A stretch of 64,000 bases of DNA from a virus. The stretch lies in the IMG/VR virus record IMGVR_UViG_3300010885_030180, positions 39,606-103,605 of that record; one strand, written 5' to 3'. Shown here piece after piece: positions 5,501 to 64,000 of this stretch (its first letter is position 1; each line of letters begins with the position of its first letter). Below the pieces are notes generated by a model that was not told where the DNA came from, did not search any database, and saw nothing but the letters and a program-made list of their open reading frames with translations. The position numbers were made by a program, and so were the translations under genes.

Positions 5501-8500
5501 CTTCAACCGGAGTAGTAAGTGGTACTCCTACAGTAATATCAAGTAGTAATCCTTATACCGTTACAGTTACTGACACGCTATCACAACTTAGCAGCAAAAC
5601 ATTTAGTTTATCGGTAAGTTATCCTTTATTGAGTACTACTCAGGTAATTGCTACTAAAACTATTACACAGAATATCGATACAGCATCATTTACACCGGTT
5701 ACATATACTGGTGGTTATGGGGCTGTTGCATATTCCATTGCTCCTGCTTTACCAAGTGGACTGGCAATTAATACATCCACTGGATTGATCAGTGGAATAG
5801 CAATTACATCTAGTACTGTTGCCCTTTATACAGTTACCGCTACTGATGCCGCGGCGCAAACTAGTAGTAAGGGATTTAGTTTAACTGTATTACCTGAACC
5901 ACCACCTCCAGCGGTAGTTGCTACACTATCAACATCAAGCTATTCGTTTGTTAAAAATGTAGCCGTTACTACATTTACTCCTGTAGTAGGTAGTGGTGGT
6001 AAGGGTACTCTTTCGTATTCTATTGATATTGGATTACCTAGCGGATTAACTTTCATTCCAACTACAGGACAGATATTAGGAACACCAACTGGTACAAGTA
6101 ACACTACTACATACTCAGTAACAGTTACTGATTCAATATCACAGACTGCTAGTAAGTCGTTTAGTATCTATGTGGCGCCACCACCACCTCCACCTGCATT
6201 AGTTGTAACAGCCACAATTGTTACAAAAACATTAATAAAGAATGTAGCAGCAACAGCATTTATTCCAGTAACTGCCACCGGAGGAGTTGGAGCATATACA
6301 TTTAATGTTAGTCCAAGTTTACCAACAGGATTAACTTTCTTAAGTTCCAATGGACAGATTATTGGTACTCCAAGTAGCACCAGTTCTACAGCTACTTATA
6401 GTATAACTGTTGCAGATACAGTACCACAATATAATACAGCAACATTCTTATTAAATGTAATTAATCCGCCTGCGTTAGCCACCACCGCTACTGCGGCTAC
6501 TTTCTCATTGCAGAAAGATGTTACAATTTCTGCATTTTATCCTGTAACTGCAACAGGCGGTTATGGAACACTTACTTATAGTATAAGTCCAACATTACCA
6601 AGTGGATTGAGTTTTAATTCTACAAATGGTCAGGTAACTGGTACTCCAACAATATATAATGCTAGTACCAGTTATACAATAACAGTAACTGATCAAGCAG
6701 CACAATCAAGCAGCACAGCAGTTTCAATAAGTGTGATACCTGCGTCATTGGTTACAACATTAGCAGTAACATCTAGCACATTTGTTAATGGAGTTACTAT
6801 TACAGCGGTTACTCCAGTAACTGCAACAGGTGGATATACTCCGTACACATATGAAATAAGTTCACCGTTGCCTACCGGATTGGCATTTAGTACAAGTACA
6901 GGGCAAATAACAGGTAAACCTACCGCATCAATATCTGCCACACCATTTACTATAACAGTTAAAGATTTTGGAGTTACTCAAGCTAGCAGCAAGGTTTATA
7001 CATTAACAGTTAATAATCCACCTGCATTAGTTACTGTACAGGATGTTCCTACAGTTAGTTTAACTAGATATGTTGATGTTGCAAATGTATCACCTGTGAG
7101 TGCTAGTGGTGGTTACGGAACTATTTCTTTTGCAATTACTCCTACATTGCCTAGTGGATTAAGTTTCAATGCATCAAATGGTAAGATCACCGGAACTCCT
7201 ACACAATTAGATAATCGTGTATATACTATAACTGCCGCGGATTCTTTAGGGCAAACTAGCAGCAAGACATTTACATTATCAGTTGTACCTGTTCCAATTG
7301 TTACAACATTAGCAGTAGCCAGTAAAAATCTACAGGTACTTGAGTTAGCTACTCCTTTTACTCCTGTTACTGCAACAGATGGGTCAGGTACATTAACCTG
7401 GGCAATAGATAAACTATTACCAAGTGGACTTACAATCAGTACATCTACTGGTTTAATTAGCGGAACTCCTTCTGTAATAAGTTCATTAACAAACTATGCG
7501 GTTACTGTTTCAGATGCAAGTACCTCTAGTAGCAAAACATTTAGTTTATTAATTGACTTTTTACCATTAACCGTTGAACAATTAATTACAGTTAATACAT
7601 TAACACAAAATGTAGCAGCGGTTGCATTTAAACCAGTTAATGCTATTGGTGGTGTTGGTACTTTAGTATATTCAACTGTACCTAGTTTGCAGGCCGGCCT
7701 TAGTATCAATACCAGCACCGGTTATATCAGTGGTACTCCTACTATTGTAACTGCTGGTACTGTGTATTCAGTAGTTGCAACGGATACTATAAGCAATGTC
7801 AATAGTAGTACATTTACTTTAGTTGTTAATGCACCGCCTGCATTAACTACTACCGTAACTACTAGTTCTATCTCACTTACAGTTAATAACGGTGTTGTTC
7901 CTAATATTAGACCAATATTAGGTACAGGTGGATATGGATCACTACGTTATAGTCTTAATAATTCTCCTATCTTTCCTCAAGGATTAACATTTAATACAAG
8001 TACTGGATATATCAGTGGTACTCCAACATTATTAGGGTCTGTACAAACATATACAGTTACCGTAAGAGACGATCTATCTCAAGTTAGTACACAGACATTT
8101 AATTTACAAGTAATTCCACTTCCGATTACTATTACAGTACCTTATCCTACAGCAGCATTAACACAGTATACTCAAGTTACACCATTTGTTCCTGTAGTAG
8201 GCACACTTGGTTATGGTGCATTGACCTATAGTATAAATCCACCATTATCAACGGGATTAAATTTTGATATCAATACTGGAGAAGTTAGCGGCACACCTAC
8301 CAGTACAGTCGGTGATGCTGTACATTATGTAACTGTTACTGACCAAGCTGGACAAAATAATACTGGAACAACTACTATTGTTATTAGTGATAATCCACCT
8401 CCTACATTATTGGCAGTATTACAATCTTCTTATATTGCGTTAACATTGGGTGAATTATCTGAGACAATACCAGTAACTGGTAGTAGCGGTTATGGCACAT

Positions 8501-9090
8501 ATAGTTATTCAATAAGTCCTAGTCAGTTGCCAGCTGGACTAACATTTAATACAGTTAACGGATTAATTAGTGGAACGCCTACAGCAGTATTCACAAGTAC
8601 AAGTTTTACTATTACTGTAACTGACGGTGTTCCACAAACAGCAATACAATCTTTTAATTTAGCAGTAATAGAGGCTATAGTAACACAGGGCAAGGGATAT
8701 ACAGGTAGTCGTGGATATACAGGTTCAATAGGCGTAGGATACACTGGCAGTAAAGGCAATATTGGCTATATAGGTAGTTTTGGCTACACGGGCTCAATTG
8801 GTTATACCGGTAGTGCTGGTCAAAATGGTTATACCGGATCAGCAAGTACCGCAAGTGGATATACCGGTTCAATTGGCGCAGGGTACACTGGTTCGGTTGG
8901 CAACACAGGTACTGGATATACTGGATCTATTGGAATAGGATATACTGGTAGTCGAGGTTATGTAGGTAGCAAAGGTGAAAAAGGCGACCCGGGAACAGGT
9001 GGTGGCGGCGGCTATTTTGGTAACTTTGACGGAGGTCAACCTGACTCTAATTATGGTGGAATCACTAGTATCGATGCTGGTGGGGTCTAG
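2569..9090 (+). CDS. giant adhesin/fibre with ~21 putative Ig (He_PIG-type) repeats and collagen-like C-terminus
   Basis: This 2173-residue protein is built from about 21 tandem repeats of ~85-90 residues. Each carries a core such as SPALPTGLSFN, then xxGxISGTPTV, then YTVTVTD and KTFSLTV. This is the signature of 'putative Ig' (He_PIG) beta-sandwich domains of bacterial surface adhesins. The first ~60 residues are non-repetitive (MAIFFYPYPTTQPNT) and likely attach the protein to a partner. After about residue 2040 it switches to GYTGSx collagen-like repeats and ends with a glycine run and a short tail. Expected role: a very long extended virion fibre contacting the host surface. No enzymatic motif is seen. 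No Shine-Dalgarno precedes the ATG. Confidence 0.8.
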   Translation: MAIFFYPYPTTQPNTVLSQFVLNDIWVSQNGAPVQLTYNAITKKNAWTKYTTPPAVGGISASINGGPPVIASTLVSNTSLTKDQSTSFVPVTAYGGAAVASSYTVTGATVTGLTATISPALPAGLTLSTTLTVKSVTGADSVPRLYNSVDVTISGTPTVAIAGTTFIVTFTDAGGQTSGASFNLTVTGPVIPTLVATQSVASTSLTKNVAAAAFTPVTGSGGQNPLSYGVSPSLPAGLSFNSTNGQITGTPTVALSATTFTVTVTDSLGQTASNTFSLTVVNPPALVLSQSVTTKDLTQNVAITAFIPVSATGGYGTLTYSISPTLPAGLSFSIVTGQISGTPTVSSAANNYTVTITDTLAQSVNATFSLSVTPAQVITVQAVPNTTLTQKIVATEFTPVTGSGGTGTLTYAVSPSLPTGLSFNSSNGLISGTPTVTSGLTVYTVTVTDSQTQTSSKTFSLTVNAPPALSTTQAIATKSLSQNAVATPFIPVTATGGVPSLVFAISPALPAGLTFSSTTGQVSGTPSVATIATTYTVTVTDAVAQTSSKTFLLNVDAVSLTTTLVVPTTVLLQNDLAASFTPVTGSGGIGTLNYAVSPALPTGLTFNTNNGLISGTPTVILATTNFTVTVTDSNNIPQSSSKTFSLTVNPKAVVTVQAVPSTVITQNISITPFIPVTASGGTGTLTYAVSPALPTGLSFNTVNGQISGNSGSVLSQTTYTVTVTDSNTVPQSSSKTFTLTVNALPALTTTLVQATATLTQNTAVTAFIPVTGTGGYGTLAYSISPALPSGLSFNTSNGQVTGTPSVLSGTTNYIVTVTDGASQSSNKTFSLTVNAGPIVTTVLVAAQTITQYILATTFKPVNGTGGYGTLLYSVSPTLPSGLNLNSSTGFITGTPTVVQGATTYTITVTDSVPQTSSKTFTLTVEAPPAISTVLAVPTSALTIGVAASAFTPVTATGGYGTLSYAIGTSLPGGLIFNTSTGVVSGTPTVISSSNPYTVTVTDTLSQLSSKTFSLSVSYPLLSTTQVIATKTITQNIDTASFTPVTYTGGYGAVAYSIAPALPSGLAINTSTGLISGIAITSSTVALYTVTATDAAAQTSSKGFSLTVLPEPPPPAVVATLSTSSYSFVKNVAVTTFTPVVGSGGKGTLSYSIDIGLPSGLTFIPTTGQILGTPTGTSNTTTYSVTVTDSISQTASKSFSIYVAPPPPPPALVVTATIVTKTLIKNVAATAFIPVTATGGVGAYTFNVSPSLPTGLTFLSSNGQIIGTPSSTSSTATYSITVADTVPQYNTATFLLNVINPPALATTATAATFSLQKDVTISAFYPVTATGGYGTLTYSISPTLPSGLSFNSTNGQVTGTPTIYNASTSYTITVTDQAAQSSSTAVSISVIPASLVTTLAVTSSTFVNGVTITAVTPVTATGGYTPYTYEISSPLPTGLAFSTSTGQITGKPTASISATPFTITVKDFGVTQASSKVYTLTVNNPPALVTVQDVPTVSLTRYVDVANVSPVSASGGYGTISFAITPTLPSGLSFNASNGKITGTPTQLDNRVYTITAADSLGQTSSKTFTLSVVPVPIVTTLAVASKNLQVLELATPFTPVTATDGSGTLTWAIDKLLPSGLTISTSTGLISGTPSVISSLTNYAVTVSDASTSSSKTFSLLIDFLPLTVEQLITVNTLTQNVAAVAFKPVNAIGGVGTLVYSTVPSLQAGLSINTSTGYISGTPTIVTAGTVYSVVATDTISNVNSSTFTLVVNAPPALTTTVTTSSISLTVNNGVVPNIRPILGTGGYGSLRYSLNNSPIFPQGLTFNTSTGYISGTPTLLGSVQTYTVTVRDDLSQVSTQTFNLQVIPLPITITVPYPTAALTQYTQVTPFVPVVGTLGYGALTYSINPPLSTGLNFDINTGEVSGTPTSTVGDAVHYVTVTDQAGQNNTGTTTIVISDNPPPTLLAVLQSSYIALTLGELSETIPVTGSSGYGTYSYSISPSQLPAGLTFNTVNGLISGTPTAVFTSTSFTITVTDGVPQTAIQSFNLAVIEAIVTQGKGYTGSRGYTGSIGVGYTGSKGNIGYIGSFGYTGSIGYTGSAGQNGYTGSASTASGYTGSIGAGYTGSVGNTGTGYTGSIGIGYTGSRGYVGSKGEKGDPGTGGGGGYFGNFDGGQPDSNYGGITSIDAGGV
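3136..8670 (+). repeat. tandem He_PIG-type Ig-like domain repeats (about 21 copies)
   Basis: The DNA repeats with a period of about 255-270 bases. I counted 21 copies of the LP(A/T/S)GL...GxITGTPT core by eye, including divergent copies near 7680, 7980 and 8250. Confidence 0.85.
8695..8990 (+). repeat. collagen-like GYTGSx coding repeat at the adhesin C-terminus
   Basis: This shorter tract of the same G-Y-T/G-S-x coding repeat is interrupted once by an A-S-T-A-S spacer. That spacer also occurs repeatedly in the 12607-22188 gene, linking the two genes by shared sequence. Confidence 0.85.
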
Positions 9091-23391: not shown

Positions 23392-25185
23392 ATGTCATAC
23401 TATTACTACAAAGTGTTAGGTCAAGCAAACCCTGCTGCCTCCACATTAACCACATTATACACAGTACCTGCTAGTACGAATGCAATAATATCCACTATAA
23501 CTGTATGTAATCAAGCCGCAAGTACAGCAACTTATAGTATTGCCGTGCGCCCATTTGGTGCAACTATTGATCCTAAACATTACATTAATTATAATGCTGC
23601 TATTCCTGCATCAGACACTATTGGTGTAACAATGGGACTAACTTTAGCGCAAACTGATGTAATATCAGTGAGTTCTAGTAATAGTTCTACTAGTTTTAAT
23701 GTATTTGGCACACATATTACTGAAACAGTTCCTGTGGCTGATCAGACTACTGCAACTTCAGTTCAATATTTGGTAGTCGGCGGTGGCGGTGGCGGCGGTT
23801 TTTTATTAGGTGGAGGTGGTGGTGCCGGTGGAGTTGTAGTATCATCAGCCTATACTGTTACCCCTGGATCAGTAATCACTGTAACTGTAGGTGCAGGTGG
23901 TACCGCCGGAACTGGTGGAGCGGGAGGCACTGGCGTTAATTCATCAATCGTTGGACCTACTGAATATTCGCTATCATTAAATGGTACTAGTCAATATCTA
24001 ACCGTTCCTAGTAATGCCGCATTAGCATTCGGAACTGGAGACTTTACAGTAGAATGCTGGCTTTATGTAAATGTAGCACCTTCTGGTTCGCCAGAAATTT
24101 TTACTGCGGGAGATTTTCATCTTAACTTTAGAACCGGGTCAACTATTGCAATAACTAACAATTCTACAGTATTATCAAATACGGCTGCAATATCAACTGG
24201 TGCATGGACTCATATTGCAGCCGTTCGTAGTTCTGGTAATATGACAATATATATAAATGGTGTTGCTAATACCGTTGCAACTAATGCATACAGTTTTGTA
24301 CAAGGTACTGGTCAAATTGGATCAGGAAATGGGGCATCGGGCCCTTTCATGAATGTATATATGTCCAACCTACGAGTATTGAAAGGAACAGCACTTTATA
24401 CTAGTGGATTCACTCCATCTAGAGCGGCATTAACTGCTATTACCAATACCAGTTTATTAACTTTACAAAACTCTACATTTATAGATAATTCAGGTAATGG
24501 CATTGTTCTTACCGCAGTTAGTAGTGCAGCCATGACAAATACTCTTTCACCATTCAACACAGGGTTAGGTGGGGGTGGCGGTGGGACTTGGCAAGGTGGA
24601 GCCGGTATCGCAGGTGCATCCGGTGGCGGCGGTGCTGGATCTGATAGTAGTGGCGGCGCAGGTGGCGGTGGTACACAATCTACAAATTCTAGTGGTGGAT
24701 TTGGCAATGCCGGTGGTGCAGGCAATGGTGGCCGATTGGGTGGTGGTGGCGGCGGTGCTGGTAGTGCTGGTTATGCCGCTGGCGCAACTGCTCTTAGTGC
24801 AGGTACAGGGGGTGTTGGATATCAATCAATTATTACTACTACATCTACTTACTTTGCAGGAGGAGGAGGAGGTGGATTTGAAAGCGCCAACGCTGGAAAC
24901 ACTTACGGTCGAGGTGGTGCTGGTGGCGGCGGTAATGGTGGATATTCAAACAGCTCATACAATGGAACTGCTGGCTCTACCAATACTGGAGGTGGTGGTG
25001 GTGCAGGTGGTAATCAGTCCGGATCAGTTAGCGGATCAGGTGCCGCTGGTGGGTCTGGTACTGTTATTATTAGATTTTCTTCTGCTAACTATTATCCTGC
25101 TACTGCAAATACAAATGCAACATATACATCAACAGGTGGATATAATATATATACATTCAACTCAAGCGGAACACTTACTATATAA
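23392..25185 (+). CDS. glycine-rich fibre protein with nested LamG-like domain
   Basis: The 597-residue protein starts with the same beta domain as its upstream neighbour (YYKVLGQANPAAS ... VCNQAAS ... FNVFGTHI). A glycine-rich domain then opens at about residue 125 (VQYLVVGGGGGGG). At about residue 190 that domain is interrupted by a ~190-residue LamG/concanavalin-like module (SLNGTSQYLTVPSNAALAFG, FTVECWLYV, WTHIAAVR, MTIYINGV, VYMSNLRVLKGTALY). The glycine-rich domain resumes near residue 385 and closes with GSGTVIIRF. LamG modules bind glycans, so a host-polysaccharide receptor role is plausible. It begins 9 bases after the previous stop, with an A/T-rich leader and no Shine-Dalgarno. Confidence 0.7.
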   Translation: MSYYYYKVLGQANPAASTLTTLYTVPASTNAIISTITVCNQAASTATYSIAVRPFGATIDPKHYINYNAAIPASDTIGVTMGLTLAQTDVISVSSSNSSTSFNVFGTHITETVPVADQTTATSVQYLVVGGGGGGGFLLGGGGGAGGVVVSSAYTVTPGSVITVTVGAGGTAGTGGAGGTGVNSSIVGPTEYSLSLNGTSQYLTVPSNAALAFGTGDFTVECWLYVNVAPSGSPEIFTAGDFHLNFRTGSTIAITNNSTVLSNTAAISTGAWTHIAAVRSSGNMTIYINGVANTVATNAYSFVQGTGQIGSGNGASGPFMNVYMSNLRVLKGTALYTSGFTPSRAALTAITNTSLLTLQNSTFIDNSGNGIVLTAVSSAAMTNTLSPFNTGLGGGGGGTWQGGAGIAGASGGGGAGSDSSGGAGGGGTQSTNSSGGFGNAGGAGNGGRLGGGGGGAGSAGYAAGATALSAGTGGVGYQSIITTTSTYFAGGGGGGFESANAGNTYGRGGAGGGGNGGYSNSSYNGTAGSTNTGGGGGAGGNQSGSVSGSGAAGGSGTVIIRFSSANYYPATANTNATYTSTGGYNIYTFNSSGTLTI

Positions 25186-25197
25186 TGAGAATTTAAT

Positions 25198-25521
25198 ATG
25201 TCAGTTACATACAAAGTTTTAGGACAAGCAAATCCTGCAGCAACTACTACTACTACATTATATACATCAAGTAGTACAGTAGTAGTATCTACTCTTGTAG
25301 TTTGTAATCAAGCTAATGCCGCTACTACTTATAGAGTTGCAGTTAAACCTACCGCTAATACATTGAGTACATTACATTATGTTGCATACAATAGTTCTAT
25401 AGCCGCATATGATAGTGTGGCATTAACATTGGGTATTACTATGGGAACTGCTGAAAATGTTATAGTTTATAGTAGTACTAGTACTACTAGTTTTAACTTA
25501 TTTGGCACGGAGATAATTTAA
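25198..25521 (+). CDS. stand-alone copy of the fibre N-terminal beta domain
   Basis: This 107-residue protein is homologous along its whole length to the N-terminal domain of the two preceding genes (YKVLGQANPAA, LYTSSSTVVVSTLVVCNQA, LHYVAYNSSIAAYDSVALTL, FNLFGTEI). It stops exactly where those proteins enter the glycine-rich domain. The stop overlaps the next ATG (TAATG), and the next gene encodes the missing glycine-rich half in another frame. It is either a naturally split fibre-tip protein with coupled translation or a former fusion broken by a frame change. Its function is probably attachment of the glycine-rich partner. Confidence 0.65.
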   Translation: MSVTYKVLGQANPAATTTTTLYTSSSTVVVSTLVVCNQANAATTYRVAVKPTANTLSTLHYVAYNSSIAAYDSVALTLGITMGTAENVIVYSSTSTTSFNLFGTEII

Positions 25522-28740: not shown

Positions 28741-31700
28741 GTGGTGGTGGCGCAGCAACTAGCACAACAGGAGTTTCTGGTACAGCAAATAAAGGTGGTG
28801 GAGGTGGTGGAGGTGGACAATCGGATGCAAGCCCAGGAACTGGCGGCAATGGTGGCAGTGGAATTATTATTCTAAAATTACCCAATACGCATAGTGCTAG
28901 CTTTGCTGGTATAAGTGCATCAACCTCAACTGCGGTAACAGGTTATAATGTATATAGTATAACTACAGGTTCGGGTAGTGTATCTTTTAGTACTGCTGCT
29001 CCAACTACTATTATTAGTACTACTAGCATTCCTATTGAATACCTAGTAGTAGGTGGTGGCGGTGGAGGCGGCCCTGGAAATAATGCAGGAAACTTTGGTG
29101 GTGGCGGCGCAGGTGGCGTTGTATCAGGTGGCACCTATGTATCTGCAGGTGTACCATTCAATGTAACAGTGGGGCAAGGTGGCGCCGCAACTGGAGGTGT
29201 AAGCACTTATAGTTGGAACGGTGATAGTTCTAGTTTATCTGTACCTGCAACTTTATCATATTATGGATCGTTTTTTAGTAGCGGTAGAATAGTAGTAACA
29301 ACTTCTACCGCTTTTTCATTCGGCGCAACTGCCAACGATTTTACAATTGAAGCATCTGTAATGTGGCCAGCAACTGCTGGGGTAACTCAATCATTTTTGG
29401 ATCTTAACGGTGGTACTAGAATTATCCTTGGTAGAACAACTTCTGGCTGGCGGGTATATATAAATGGTGCCGAGGCTGGATTCACTTTTAACATTGCAAG
29501 TAATTTTTGGTATCATTTTGTATTCCTTAGATACAGTGGCACATATTATATATATGTCAATGGTTCATTAATGAAATCAGCCGCCGAAACAACCACCTGG
29601 GCATTTACTAGTTTAACTGTCGGAACTGAAGTTGACGGCGGATCAACAATGGCAGGATATGTTTCTAATCTGAGAATTTTAAAAGGGTCAGCAGCATACA
29701 CCGCAGCATTCATTCCTCCAACTGGTGCATTAACTGTGGTTAATAATACACAGTTATTAACACTACAAAACGCTACATTTATTGATAATTCATCTAACAA
29801 TTTTAGCTTTACACAAACAAGTAGCCCAACAATAGGATCAACATATACTCGACCAGTTGGCGTAACTGCATATGGGGGTGGCGGTGGCGGTGGATACAGT
29901 GCAAGTAATGGATGGGGCGGAGCATCAGGTGGTGGTGGTGGACAAGGAACAACACCGGGTGCAGGATTGCCAGGTCAAGGTAATGCAGGTGGTGGCGTTG
30001 GTGGCGGAGACTATTCAGGCGGGGGTGGTGGTGGTGCAGGCGGGGTTGGACAACGACCAACCGGTACTAATTTTGCAAACGGTGGATTAGGTGGAACTGG
30101 AACACAATCAAGCATTACTGGTACTCCTACATACTACGGTGGCGGTGGTGGTGGATCAACTCACGGCAGTGGTACTGTACAATCAACTGGTGGTGCTGGT
30201 GGCGGCGGTGCTGGTAGATTTGGCGCAACTCTTGGTCAACCCGGTACTCCTAATACTGGTGGCGGTGGTGGCGGTGGTTCTGAGAATGTTGCTGGTGGCA
30301 TAGGTGGATCTGGTGTTGTTATTATTAAAATACCTAATCAGTATGCTGTTAGTTTTACTACTAGCACTACCTATACCGTTTCGTCAGCAGTATCTGGCTA
30401 TAATATATATAGAATAACAGCCGGTTCGGGGTTAGTAACAGCCGGGACAGGTATAGCTGTTGAATACTTAATAGTAGGTGGTGGTGGCGCTGGCGGTGCA
30501 GGTGTAAGCACAAATGCTCGTGGTGGTGGTGGTGGTGCTGGCGGTTTACTATATCAATCAGACACCATTGTATCAGGTTCCAGCAATACTATTACTATTG
30601 GCGCAGGCGGGACCACAGTTGTTGGACAAAATGGAACCAACGGTGGTAATACCGTTGCATTCGCTAACACTATGTTAGGTGGCGGTGGAGGCGGGTCCTG
30701 GGGTAATAGTGGTACTCCAAACAGCGGTGCTTCGGGTGGTGGTGCTGGCCAAGGGTCTGGCAGCGTCATTGGAGGAACAAGTACCCAGTTTGCTACTTAT
30801 GGATATGGCGTTGGGTTTGGTGGCGGTACAAACGGCGGTGCCTATACTAACAATAATGCTAGTAGCGGTGGTGGTGGTGGTGGATCTGGCGGCGCTGGTA
30901 ATAATGCTTCAGCAGGTGTTGCAGGTGCTGGCGGTACTGGAACTAATGCATACAGCACATTCTTACAATATGCAGGTGCTGGTGTTTATTCTACCGGTAC
31001 ATTTTATATTGCAGGCGGTGGCGGTGGTGGTGGCGGAACTGCAATTGGGCGCGGTGGTATTGGTGGTGGTGGTGATGGCGCTTATGCAACAGATACTCCA
31101 TCAGATGCTACTATCTTTACAGGTAGTGGTGGTGGTGGTGGTGGTGGATCAGGTGGTGGTACTGGCGTTGGTGGTGCAGGTGCCAGCGGCATTGTAATTG
31201 TTCGTTATCCCTCTGGAATAAACAATGATATATTATATAATAACAGTGATCCATATTTTAACAAAACATCTTTACTGTTAAGCAATCCGCAAACGGTAAG
31301 TAATGCTCCTACCATTGATTACTTAGTAGTTGCTGGTGGTGGCGGTGGCGGTGGAGCCGGTTCTACTAATGGTGGATCAGGCGGTGGTGGTGCCGGTGGT
31401 TTACTCACAGCATCAAGTCAAACATTTTTACTAGCAACACTTTATACAGTTACAGTTGGCACAGGAGGCAACGGTGGTGCAAGAGATACAAATGGTTCTA
31501 ATGGTAGTAACTCAATATTCTCAACTCTAACTGCAATAGGTGGCGGTGGCGGTGCCGGTGGTACAAGCAGTAGTGGTAATTCTGGTGGGTCAGGTGGCGG
31601 CGGTGGACAACTTGGTGGTACTGGTGGTAGTGCTACTAGTGGACAAGGTAACGCCGGTGCTACAACGGTTGGAAACAACAACGGTGGTCAAGGTGGTGGC

Positions 31701-62313: not shown

Positions 62314-63156
62314 ATGCCATATGTACCAGGCGCAGTAGTTCACGGTGTAACTCACGTTGCCGATGTCTATAATTCACCAAATGTTTACATAAACAATGTT
62401 TTGGTTGCACTTTGGAATCCAGCAGGATCTACTGCACCATTTGGCACAGTGTCTGTATCAGTATCAGTTAGTATTCCAGAAGGTGATCAAGCGGCTGCTG
62501 TGGCGTTAGTTGACGACTATGTTACAGCCCAAACTGGCCAACCTAATGATTATTATAAACCAGAAGCTGTTGCTGACGGAGTTAAAGGTAACTATGCAGG
62601 TACTCCTGAATCATCAAGTGTACCAGACGGGGCTGTGGCCACTGATCCAACTGCATCAGATATTATACCATTCTTACAAGCAAGATTAGCAGAAGCAGCA
62701 ACTGGTACATGGAGAGAAACTGGACAAGGCGGTGCAGCAAGTAATTCTAAGATTACCGGCATTTGGACCAATCTTGGATATCCTGCAAGTAATCCTTGGA
62801 CTACTGATCAAACTGCTTGGTGCATGGGCTTTGTTAACTACACTCTTAAGAGTTGTGGATATAAGTATGTACAGACTGCTAGTGCTGCTGCGATTACTAC
62901 TAGTCCAGAAAAGTGGACCGCGGTACAAGTACCAAAGGCAGAAGCACAACCGGGTGATATTGCATTCTGGAGTTATAGGCATGTAAACTTTGTATATACT
63001 GCGGCCAACGGCAAGTACAGTTTTGTAGGTGGAAATCAAACACCTAGTGGTGGTAAGAACAATCCAGACGACGGAGATTTAACTATCTCGTATCCAGGCG
63101 GTACTGCTGCTAGTAATGCAAATTGGGTTAGTTGCTGGCGTATAACTAAAGCATAA
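62314..63156 (+). CDS. PAAR-like/CHAP-type spike or muralytic protein
   Basis: The 280-residue protein has an N-terminal ~40-residue segment (HGVTHVADVYNSPNVYINN) that resembles a PAAR-type spike-tip repeat. A linker with beta-strand and Ser/Pro-rich parts follows. The C-terminal CHAP/NlpC-P60-like cysteine peptidase domain (about residues 130-280) contains C170 in TAWCMGFVNYTL, H223 in RHVNFVY and the AQPGDIAFW motif typical of these amidase/peptidases (TIGR02594-like). It probably sits at the tail spike and cuts peptidoglycan during entry, or acts as the endolysin. It has an AGGA ribosome binding site. A structured RNA region follows. Confidence 0.75.
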   Translation: MPYVPGAVVHGVTHVADVYNSPNVYINNVLVALWNPAGSTAPFGTVSVSVSVSIPEGDQAAAVALVDDYVTAQTGQPNDYYKPEAVADGVKGNYAGTPESSSVPDGAVATDPTASDIIPFLQARLAEAATGTWRETGQGGAASNSKITGIWTNLGYPASNPWTTDQTAWCMGFVNYTLKSCGYKYVQTASAAAITTSPEKWTAVQVPKAEAQPGDIAFWSYRHVNFVYTAANGKYSFVGGNQTPSGGKNNPDDGDLTISYPGGTAASNANWVSCWRITKA

Positions 63157-63264
63157 GTATTATAGTCTGCAAGGGCATAATGTGTAACATTTAGTAAGGT
63201 GCAAGTCCGGGAGGTTGGAGGGGCCAATACTTGCAGATTCCTCCACTTTTTGGTAAAATTATAG
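63157..63264 (+). other. structured non-coding RNA candidate with terminator-like end
   Basis: The 108-base segment after the PAAR-CHAP gene can form a 10-bp closing helix (63164-63173 with 63230-63239) around an AATGT/ACATT hairpin (63179-63183 with 63187-63191) and a G-rich strand. The segment TGCAAG occurs twice (63168-63173 and 63200-63205) and either copy could pair with CTTGCA at 63230-63235. TGGAGG (63216-63221) can alternatively pair with CCTCCA (63240-63245), followed by CTTTTT, making a terminator. The closing helix and this pairing interlock as a pseudoknot or exclude each other, like an attenuator or riboswitch. It is not assigned to any known RNA class. Confidence 0.45.
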
Positions 63265-63293
63265 TTGACAATACGGTAAAACCGTGTTATAAT
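63265..63293 (+). promoter_or_regulatory. perfect-consensus sigma70 promoter with palindromic spacer
   Basis: TTGACA (63265-63270), exactly 17 bases, TATAAT (63288-63293). The spacer contains the inverted repeat ACGGT-AAA-ACCGT (63273-63285), a plausible repressor or activator site. It drives the 63323 gene, which has a ribosome binding site (CAGGAG) and a ~23-base leader. Confidence 0.8.
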
Positions 63294-63322
63294 TATTACT
63301 TAACAACATACAGGAGTCTACT

Positions 63323-63469
63323 ATGCGTAAATACAAATTATGGGTTCGTATCAGTGCTTATCAAACAGCTAACATTTATATGTATGCTGAAAATTCATTG
63401 CAAGCTAAAATGCTAGCCGAATGCCAATATGGTGTAGGACAAGTACTCCATTATATGGAAGCAGATTAA
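63323..63469 (+). CDS. 48-residue early peptide, unknown function
   Basis: ATG at 63323 follows a strong ribosome binding site (CAGGAG, 8 bases upstream) and a perfect sigma70 promoter. The peptide (MRKYKLWVRISAYQTANIYM, then AENSLQAKMLAECQYGVGQV, ending HYMEAD) is basic at the N-terminus and has a strand-strand-helix look, like small phage host-takeover or DNA-mimicking proteins. Size and promoter strength fit an early host-directed peptide; this is inferred. The next gene starts one base after its stop. Confidence 0.7.
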   Translation: MRKYKLWVRISAYQTANIYMYAENSLQAKMLAECQYGVGQVLHYMEAD

Positions 63470-63470
63470 A

Positions 63471-63821
63471 TTGAAAAATACTATGTACGTAAACAAATCA
63501 AGTAAAAATATTATAGCATTAGCATTGGCTATGTCTGTAAGTTCTACGTGGGCAGATGTTTATCGAGAATATCGATATGCTCCCCGTGTAGTTCAAGTAG
63601 AACGACATGCACAGGCTGATATCTTAGTTCCTCTAATTATTGGAGGAATGGTAGGTGCTGCAATTGCCAATCAAAATCAACCACAGCCTGTGCCACAACA
63701 ACAAGTGTTCATCCAGCGTGAACCAGTAGTTGTACAGCAGCAAACAGTGTGTTATGGTTGGAAGGAAATTCAAATGCCTGATGGGCAAATTTATCGTGAG
63801 CGTACCTGCTACCTACGATAA
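63471..63821 (+). CDS. small secreted/periplasmic protein with glycine-zipper-like segment
   Basis: The start is uncertain: a TTG at 63471 right after the previous stop, with GGAA upstream, or an ATG at 63483. Both give a signal peptide (KNIIALALAMSVSSTWA, cut before DVYREY). The mature part has a hydrophobic, glycine-spaced segment LVPLIIGGMVGAAIANQ like glycine-zipper outer-membrane or lysogenic-conversion proteins. A Pro/Gln-rich stretch (QPQPVPQQQV) follows, then a C-terminal pair of cysteines (VCYGWKEI, RTCYLR). It looks host-derived (a bacterial envelope protein). A role in superinfection exclusion or envelope modification is speculative. Confidence 0.65.
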   Translation: MKNTMYVNKSSKNIIALALAMSVSSTWADVYREYRYAPRVVQVERHAQADILVPLIIGGMVGAAIANQNQPQPVPQQQVFIQREPVVVQQQTVCYGWKEIQMPDGQIYRERTCYLR

Positions 63822-63838
63822 GTAAGAGTTATGATGGT

Positions 63839-63894
63839 ATGAAGTAGATTGAAAAGGATTCAAGACGCGGGTTCGAATCCCGCCAGGTCCACCA
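63839..63894 (+). ncRNA. ssrA-like: tmRNA-like 3' end (T-arm plus CCA), 5' half not found
   Basis: GCGGG-TTCGAAT-CCCGC (63867-63883) is a perfect tRNA T-arm. It is followed by a 7-base acceptor strand CAGGTCC, discriminator A and an encoded CCA (63892-63894). From memory, the last 31 bases match the E. coli ssrA 3' end at all but three positions, including the GACGCGGG lead-in, and the upstream ATGAAGTAG resembles the tmRNA P2 strand. No matching 5' acceptor strand (GGACCTG plus the tmRNA D-arm) exists nearby; upstream is a protein gene. It could be a decayed tmRNA, a recombination or attachment remnant, or a separate acceptor piece. Confidence 0.5.
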
Positions 63895-63908
63895 TAAGGA
63901 AGTTTGTT

Positions 63909-64000
63909 ATGATAGTTAAATTTGCAAATGCAATTGGTCGTGCTCATGGAAAGTTTTTTACCTGGTTAGGTCAAAAAGCGGAATCTAATCCATGGTGGGC
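63909..64000 (+). CDS. start of a further gene (3' truncated by window edge)
   Basis: An ATG at 63909 opens a frame that runs off the window. The visible 30 residues read MIVKFANAIGRAHGKFFTWL then GQKAESNPWW. The leader contains AAGGAAG, a suitable ribosome binding site. The fragment is too short to assign. Confidence 0.5.
   Translation, partial: MIVKFANAIGRAHGKFFTWLGQKAESNPWW

Follow-up and report, generated by a model that had tools for sequence, protein, structure and literature searches.

Comparative sequence analysis identified positions 63165–63251 of the window (the whole 64,000-nucleotide stretch of viral DNA that was analysed) as a compact pseudoknotted RNA and as a member of a real structured RNA family. 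This folded RNA of approximately 90 nt, found in lake phages, is very probably a new phage RNA. At a probability of about 0.5, we favour the reading that it represents a new family of discrete folded phage RNA forming the 5′ end of a late transcript, and that it does not act as a switch between mutually exclusive structures. The family is absent from the Rfam 15 library: no Rfam 15 family matched the window at the gathering threshold, and a permissive search of 63100–63330 gave only sub-threshold matches lying outside the RNA or on the opposite strand. Besides, an Rfam search of seven homologue loci detected nothing but tmRNA and one weak rsmX match downstream, and the RNA was not found described in the open-access literature searched. 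HDV-like and pistol ribozymes and SAM-II, cobalamin and TPP riboswitches were considered on account of short resemblances (GGUGCAAGUCC and the UGAGA T-loop) and were dropped, since nothing corresponding was found in Rfam.

All sequence elements listed in the original prediction were recovered by direct reading, including the repeated TGCAAG (63168–63173 and 63200–63205) and CTTGCA (63230–63235). The closing helix was present, but with 9 pairs (63165–63173 with 63230–63238), the outermost being G-U, and not the 10 pairs claimed. The terminator-like element was likewise found, with GGAGGGG (63217–63223) pairing to TTCCTCC (63238–63244) and followed by T5 (63247–63251), but its helix was shown to be that of a pseudoknot. 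The perfect promoter said to follow directly (TTGACA-N17-TATAAT, 63265–63293) matched at 12 out of 12 positions. The parts of the element in the window are as follows.

63152..63159, plus strand: T4-late-type promoter box CATAAGTA, sharing bases with the upstream gene's stop codon; putative function, from the T4 late consensus
63165..63251, plus strand: RNA element, from the predicted start near 63165 through the U-run; model R1 and covariation
63165..63173, plus strand: P1 5′ strand GTCUGCAAG, pairing with 63230–63238
63230..63238, plus strand: P1 3′ strand CUUGCAGAU; direct reading and covariation
63179..63191, plus strand: P2 hairpin AAUGU-GUA-ACAUU; its RUA loop does not vary across the family
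63198..63208, plus strand: P3 T-loop hairpin GG-UGCAAGU-CC; only 2 pairs form in the window
63213..63225, plus strand: P4 hairpin GGU-[UGGAGGG]-GCC, its loop holding the pseudoknot strand
63217..63222, plus strand: pseudoknot 5′ strand GGAGGG, pairing with 63239–63244
63239..63244, plus strand: pseudoknot 3′ strand UCCUCC, immediately abutting P1
63247..63251, plus strand: U5 run, by direct reading; possible RNA 3′ end with putative termination
63265..63293, plus strand: perfect extended sigma70-type promoter of the next transcript, outside the RNA and conserved only in the clade of the window

The folding energy of the single sequence, compared to chance, gave z-scores of −0.37 (all 108 bases) and −1.15 (first 86 bases); values so near chance make the thermodynamic argument by itself empty, and one sequence proves nothing. 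The comparative evidence is decisive for the fold, because both pairing and double changes exceeded those of shuffles and of slid controls. In an alignment of 61 distinct sequences (A3), 28 of the 30 base pairs changed on both sides and yet stayed paired. Among the 61 homologues, 92.2% of the cells were paired compared to 76.1% in shuffles, 322 cells were double-changed compared to 91, and none of 500 shuffles attained the observed covariation; when partners were slid by one column, pairing fell to approximately 45%. The fold shown by this comparison consists of P1, P2 with its RUA loop, the P3 T-loop hairpin and P4, the loop of which pairs to the tail after P1.

Double changes in A3 were found in all 10 family pairs of P1, in all 7 pairs of P2 (where the window carries a U-A pair and its relatives C-G), in 3 of the 4 family pairs of P3, and in all 3 of P4, which was 92% paired. 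The counted pairing of P1 is lowered by a one-base bulge present in about half of the members. The pseudoknot joining the P4 loop to the tail was 97.4% paired, with 5 of its 6 pairs double-changed, and it was never included in the model used to fit the alignment; taken alone, it showed 28 double-changed cells compared to 3.1 in shuffles, and slid versions were also beaten. Typical pseudoknot pairs were GGCGGA/UCCGUC, GGAGAA/UUCUCC, GAUAGA/UCUAUC (L194), AACGAA/UUCGUU (L108) and AACAGA/UCUGUU (L140). In alignments A2 and A3, the sequences of the clade of the window are misaligned at P4, so P4 and the pseudoknot of the window rest on direct reading. The suggestion of a compact pseudoknotted RNA, offered as one option in the original prediction together with that of a separate transcript, is supported by compensatory changes both in P1 and in the GGAGG/CCTCC helix, which together form a loop-to-tail pseudoknot.

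Several unpaired residues were invariant or nearly so. The U and the A of the RUA loop of P2 were each present in 61/61 sequences, and so were U (position 1), R and A (position 5) of the P3 T-loop, the G at position 2 being present in 60/61. These invariant residues (RUA and T-loop U-G-N-R-A) suggest a specific tertiary fold or partner. Together with the compact pseudoknot they might also be expected of a self-cleaving ribozyme or an RNA-processing element, which we consider very unlikely, given that no known ribozyme family was found in Rfam even at permissive thresholds and that the topology presumably differs from those of HDV, twister and pistol. Shortened RNAs that seemingly do not contain P3 but retain P1, P2 and a pseudoknot were observed in L023 (4661–4741), L016 (4246–4335), L058 (3652–3720) and L067 (3646–3715); the latter two are located directly 5′ of a permuted tmRNA and score below the model.

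The original prediction had regarded the closing helix, the TGCAAG/CTTGCA pairing and the GGAGG/CCTCC helix as interlocking and mutually exclusive, and had taken this as the hallmark of a switch or attenuator. Competing pairings can indeed be drawn in the window, and folding without pseudoknots prefers the GGAGG helix in a 108-base fold and P1 in 86- and 96-base folds. However, the second TGCAAG is the loop of the P3 T-loop hairpin, which reads UGARAG in most of the family and is then unable to pair with the P1 3′ strand. An alternative of the TGCAAG type with at least 6 pairs was found in only 10/59 sequences, namely the eight of the clade of the window and L055 and L068, and mutual exclusivity is therefore not a conserved property. 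Since P1 and the GGAGG-type helix are conserved together and are geometrically compatible as a pseudoknot, an attenuator with mutually exclusive helices was rejected and is the least probable of the explanations weighed here. A riboswitch in the broader sense, with a ligand-bound aptamer, is possible.

The family was collected in several ways. An exact 17-base core pattern detected the RNA in additional viral contigs, among which it was nearly identical while the upstream protein was 66–85% identical; downstream of more distant homologues of this protein, clearly divergent versions of the RNA with an identical layout were found. Covariance models R1 and then R2 were run over the fetched loci and matched in more than 60 uncultivated viral contigs with E-values down to 1e-24, the window itself scoring 59.9 bits with R1 (E 8e-12) at 63158–63252. 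Loci were partly located via one neighbouring gene, which biases the context, but pattern scans independent of this gene gave the same locus in 56 viral stretches; a loose pattern scan yielded mostly unrelated contigs among the matches listed. Among 84,980 genomes of bacteria and archaea, the pattern that gave the 56 viral stretches was not found, and a second pattern scan of bacterial and archaeal genomes gave five chance matches, all of which were rejected by the model. When four divergent members were compared by blastn with 50,697 records of cultured phages, no credible match emerged. The cultured phages Phosso, Melnitz, S-BM3 and ACG-2014f carry a homologue of the 95-aa upstream protein, and their whole records gave no model match in a search run without a positive control. 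Judged by these searches, the RNA was shown to be restricted to phages within the collections searched. It was matched in 21/25 and 19/20 of the whole records, and all 39 distinct records with a match, including contigs of 322, 327 and 353 kb, contained one confident copy; a second match in two records was at chance level (E 0.3).

A box of the form [N]TAA[AG]TA, related to the T4 late consensus (TATAAATA), was found upstream of P1 in 54/59 distinct members, with a spacing of 6–8 bases in 47/59. Variants of the box were CATAAATA in L003 and GTTAAATA in many relatives, and T4-late-like boxes also precede other genes in the genome of the window. From its position, a T4-late-type box 6–8 bases before P1 would start the transcript at P1, and a late transcript is likely to begin with the RNA. 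The sigma70 promoter at 63265, which is particular to the clade of the window, serves the next transcript. Downstream of the pseudoknot, at least four U were present within 14 bases in 36/59 members, and the U-run may set the 3′ end; with less certainty than for the start, the RNA would end at or near this run. The run is absent or short in many members, which speaks against the discrete late RNA that we favour to the extent that a defined 3′ end is not general.

The same features could alternatively belong to a terminator or 3′-end element of the mRNA of the tail gene, in which the pseudoknot helix and the U-run would act before the sigma70 promoter. GGAGG/CCUCC followed by U5 in the window, the U-run in other members, and an RNA start that is only a few bases away from the upstream stop codon at many loci are all consistent with this. 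The intrinsic-terminator layout in the window consists of a pseudoknot helix and a U-run with no plain hairpin. A terminator would have no need for conserved P1, P2, T-loop and P4, nor for a promoter box at the 5′ edge; several members do not contain the U-run, and the upstream genes vary too, so we regard this explanation as unlikely.

In the window the RNA directly follows a tail gene. This gene had been described as a spike gene, which was not evident from its matches: a weak one to NlpC/P60 (Pfam E 0.003, below the cut-off) and one, in PHROG (E 4.8e-6), to a baseplate hub/tail lysozyme family. On the downstream side, a gene for a small secreted protein follows the RNA in 28/59 distinct members, the window included, and in about half of the members its start codon lies 16–67 bases downstream and is accompanied by a ribosome site; in L160 and L029 the distance is 17–18 bases. 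The corresponding ORF in the window (63471–63821) encodes a small secreted protein in which a stretch with IIGG resembles a glycine zipper; it had no Pfam match but was homologous to His/Gly-rich proteins found directly after the RNA in many relatives (E 5e-19). It lies behind a 48-aa ORF (63323–63469; MRKYKLWVRI...), itself located directly behind the perfect extended sigma70-type promoter, which looks like a mobile small gene since, in related phages, its homologues lie upstream or downstream of the RNA. Elsewhere in the window, long ORFs with Gly-rich repeats were tail-fibre-like (24569–25222, 30679–31197 and similar), and these repeats open other long overlapping frames.

Other downstream neighbours were a P-loop kinase, a permuted tmRNA, an alpha/beta-hydrolase-like ORF, or nothing recognisable. 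The RNA was intact in six close siblings of the window (L005, L085, L087, L091, L095 and L096) in which the gene for the secreted protein was not recognised within 1–3 kb downstream. Ten further lineages (L039, L060, L108, L018, L192, L194, L243, L246, L147 and L140) likewise keep the RNA with no recognisable copy of this gene over 1–3 kb downstream. Many sequence stretches end soon after the RNA, and the absence of a gene downstream is therefore not certain in every case.

Many of the phages carry a permuted tmRNA nearby, encoded on the same strand. In the window, its acceptor half (63833–64000; RF04321, 37.8 bits, E 5e-6, below gathering) is cut by the end of the contig, a fragment of 103.6 kb, and related contigs contain a complete permuted, two-piece tmRNA at the same place. 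The RNA itself does not contain the tRNA-like acceptor and tag-coding parts of a tmRNA, and the acceptor half is a separate feature. Sinorhizobium phage Phosso (L291; PV764938) was observed to contain an unannotated permuted tmRNA (8114–8803; RF04321, 113 bits) in a 750-base gap; the genes are arranged as in the window (95-aa protein, PAAR protein, tmRNA), but the RNA is missing.

This context bears on whether the RNA acts on its own transcript. As a cis-acting leader, riboswitch-like or protein-binding, it would control translation or stability of the downstream late mRNA, the target most often being the small secreted His/Gly-rich protein and the regulated part being the loop-to-tail pseudoknot by the ribosome site. 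We consider such a leader possible, if less than probable. Beginning at a late-type promoter and ending shortly before the start codon of the secreted protein in about half of the members is as expected of a leader and counts against a discrete RNA, and the homologue of this protein in the window agrees with it. The layout offers a further parallel: in the glutamine riboswitches glnA and Downstream-peptide, P1 closes a junction and a hairpin loop pairs with the tail after P1, an arrangement that the junction and loop-to-tail pairing of the new RNA resemble. On the other hand, the gene downstream of the RNA is inconstant, and in the clade of the window a promoter lies between the RNA and the next ORF. 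With modest confidence, a discrete late RNA is therefore preferred over a cis-acting riboswitch, on account of the box at P1 and of the persistence of the RNA without the gene for the secreted protein. Less certainly, this discrete RNA would have a trans-acting, structural or protein-binding role in the late phase; such a role is favoured because the adjacent gene changes between lineages and the RNA stays.

Leaders of comparable kind are known from phages. The riboswitch candidates manA (RF01745) and wcaG (RF01761), which occur in T4-like cyanophages, are likewise structured and covarying and come mostly from viral and metagenomic DNA of aquatic origin (PMC2864571), but they are located in the 5′ UTRs of metabolic genes, whereas the new RNA follows tail genes, has no constant downstream gene and matches neither family in Rfam. 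In phage Melnitz, a glutamine riboswitch lies ahead of the permuted tmRNA (PMC9004378), and the new RNA is similarly found directly before a permuted tmRNA in L039, L060 and L108; it differs from glutamine riboswitches in having no Rfam match to them, in its additional T-loop hairpin and in the RUA hairpin, which is invariant. The leader of T4 gene 32 also contains a pseudoknot in the mRNA of a T4-like phage, in that case a simple two-stem structure 67 nt upstream of gene 32 that is bound by gp32 (PMC3014915), in contrast to the four helices plus pseudoknot and the unrelated gene context of the new RNA. The permuted tmRNA (RF04321, RF01850) is a neighbour at the same locus and on the same strand, yet a separate gene, with the RNA lying outside the tmRNA model. 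None of manA, wcaG, the glutamine riboswitch and the gene 32 pseudoknot shares its sequence or full layout.

To our knowledge, only a small number of well-supported RNA families are specific to phages, and the majority came to light as riboswitch candidates in leaders. The present RNA persists in phages of approximately 50 to more than 350 kb while neighbouring genes come and go. Tentatively, it may represent a new class of trans-acting late phage non-coding RNA, present as a single copy in a broad range of T4-like and very large aquatic phages beside the permuted tmRNA, with host or phage translation or the assembly of particles as its target. A role in trans would make it the phage equivalent of 6S RNA, tmRNA or the unexplained stable RNAs of T4; a role in cis would make it a new riboswitch-like leader class.
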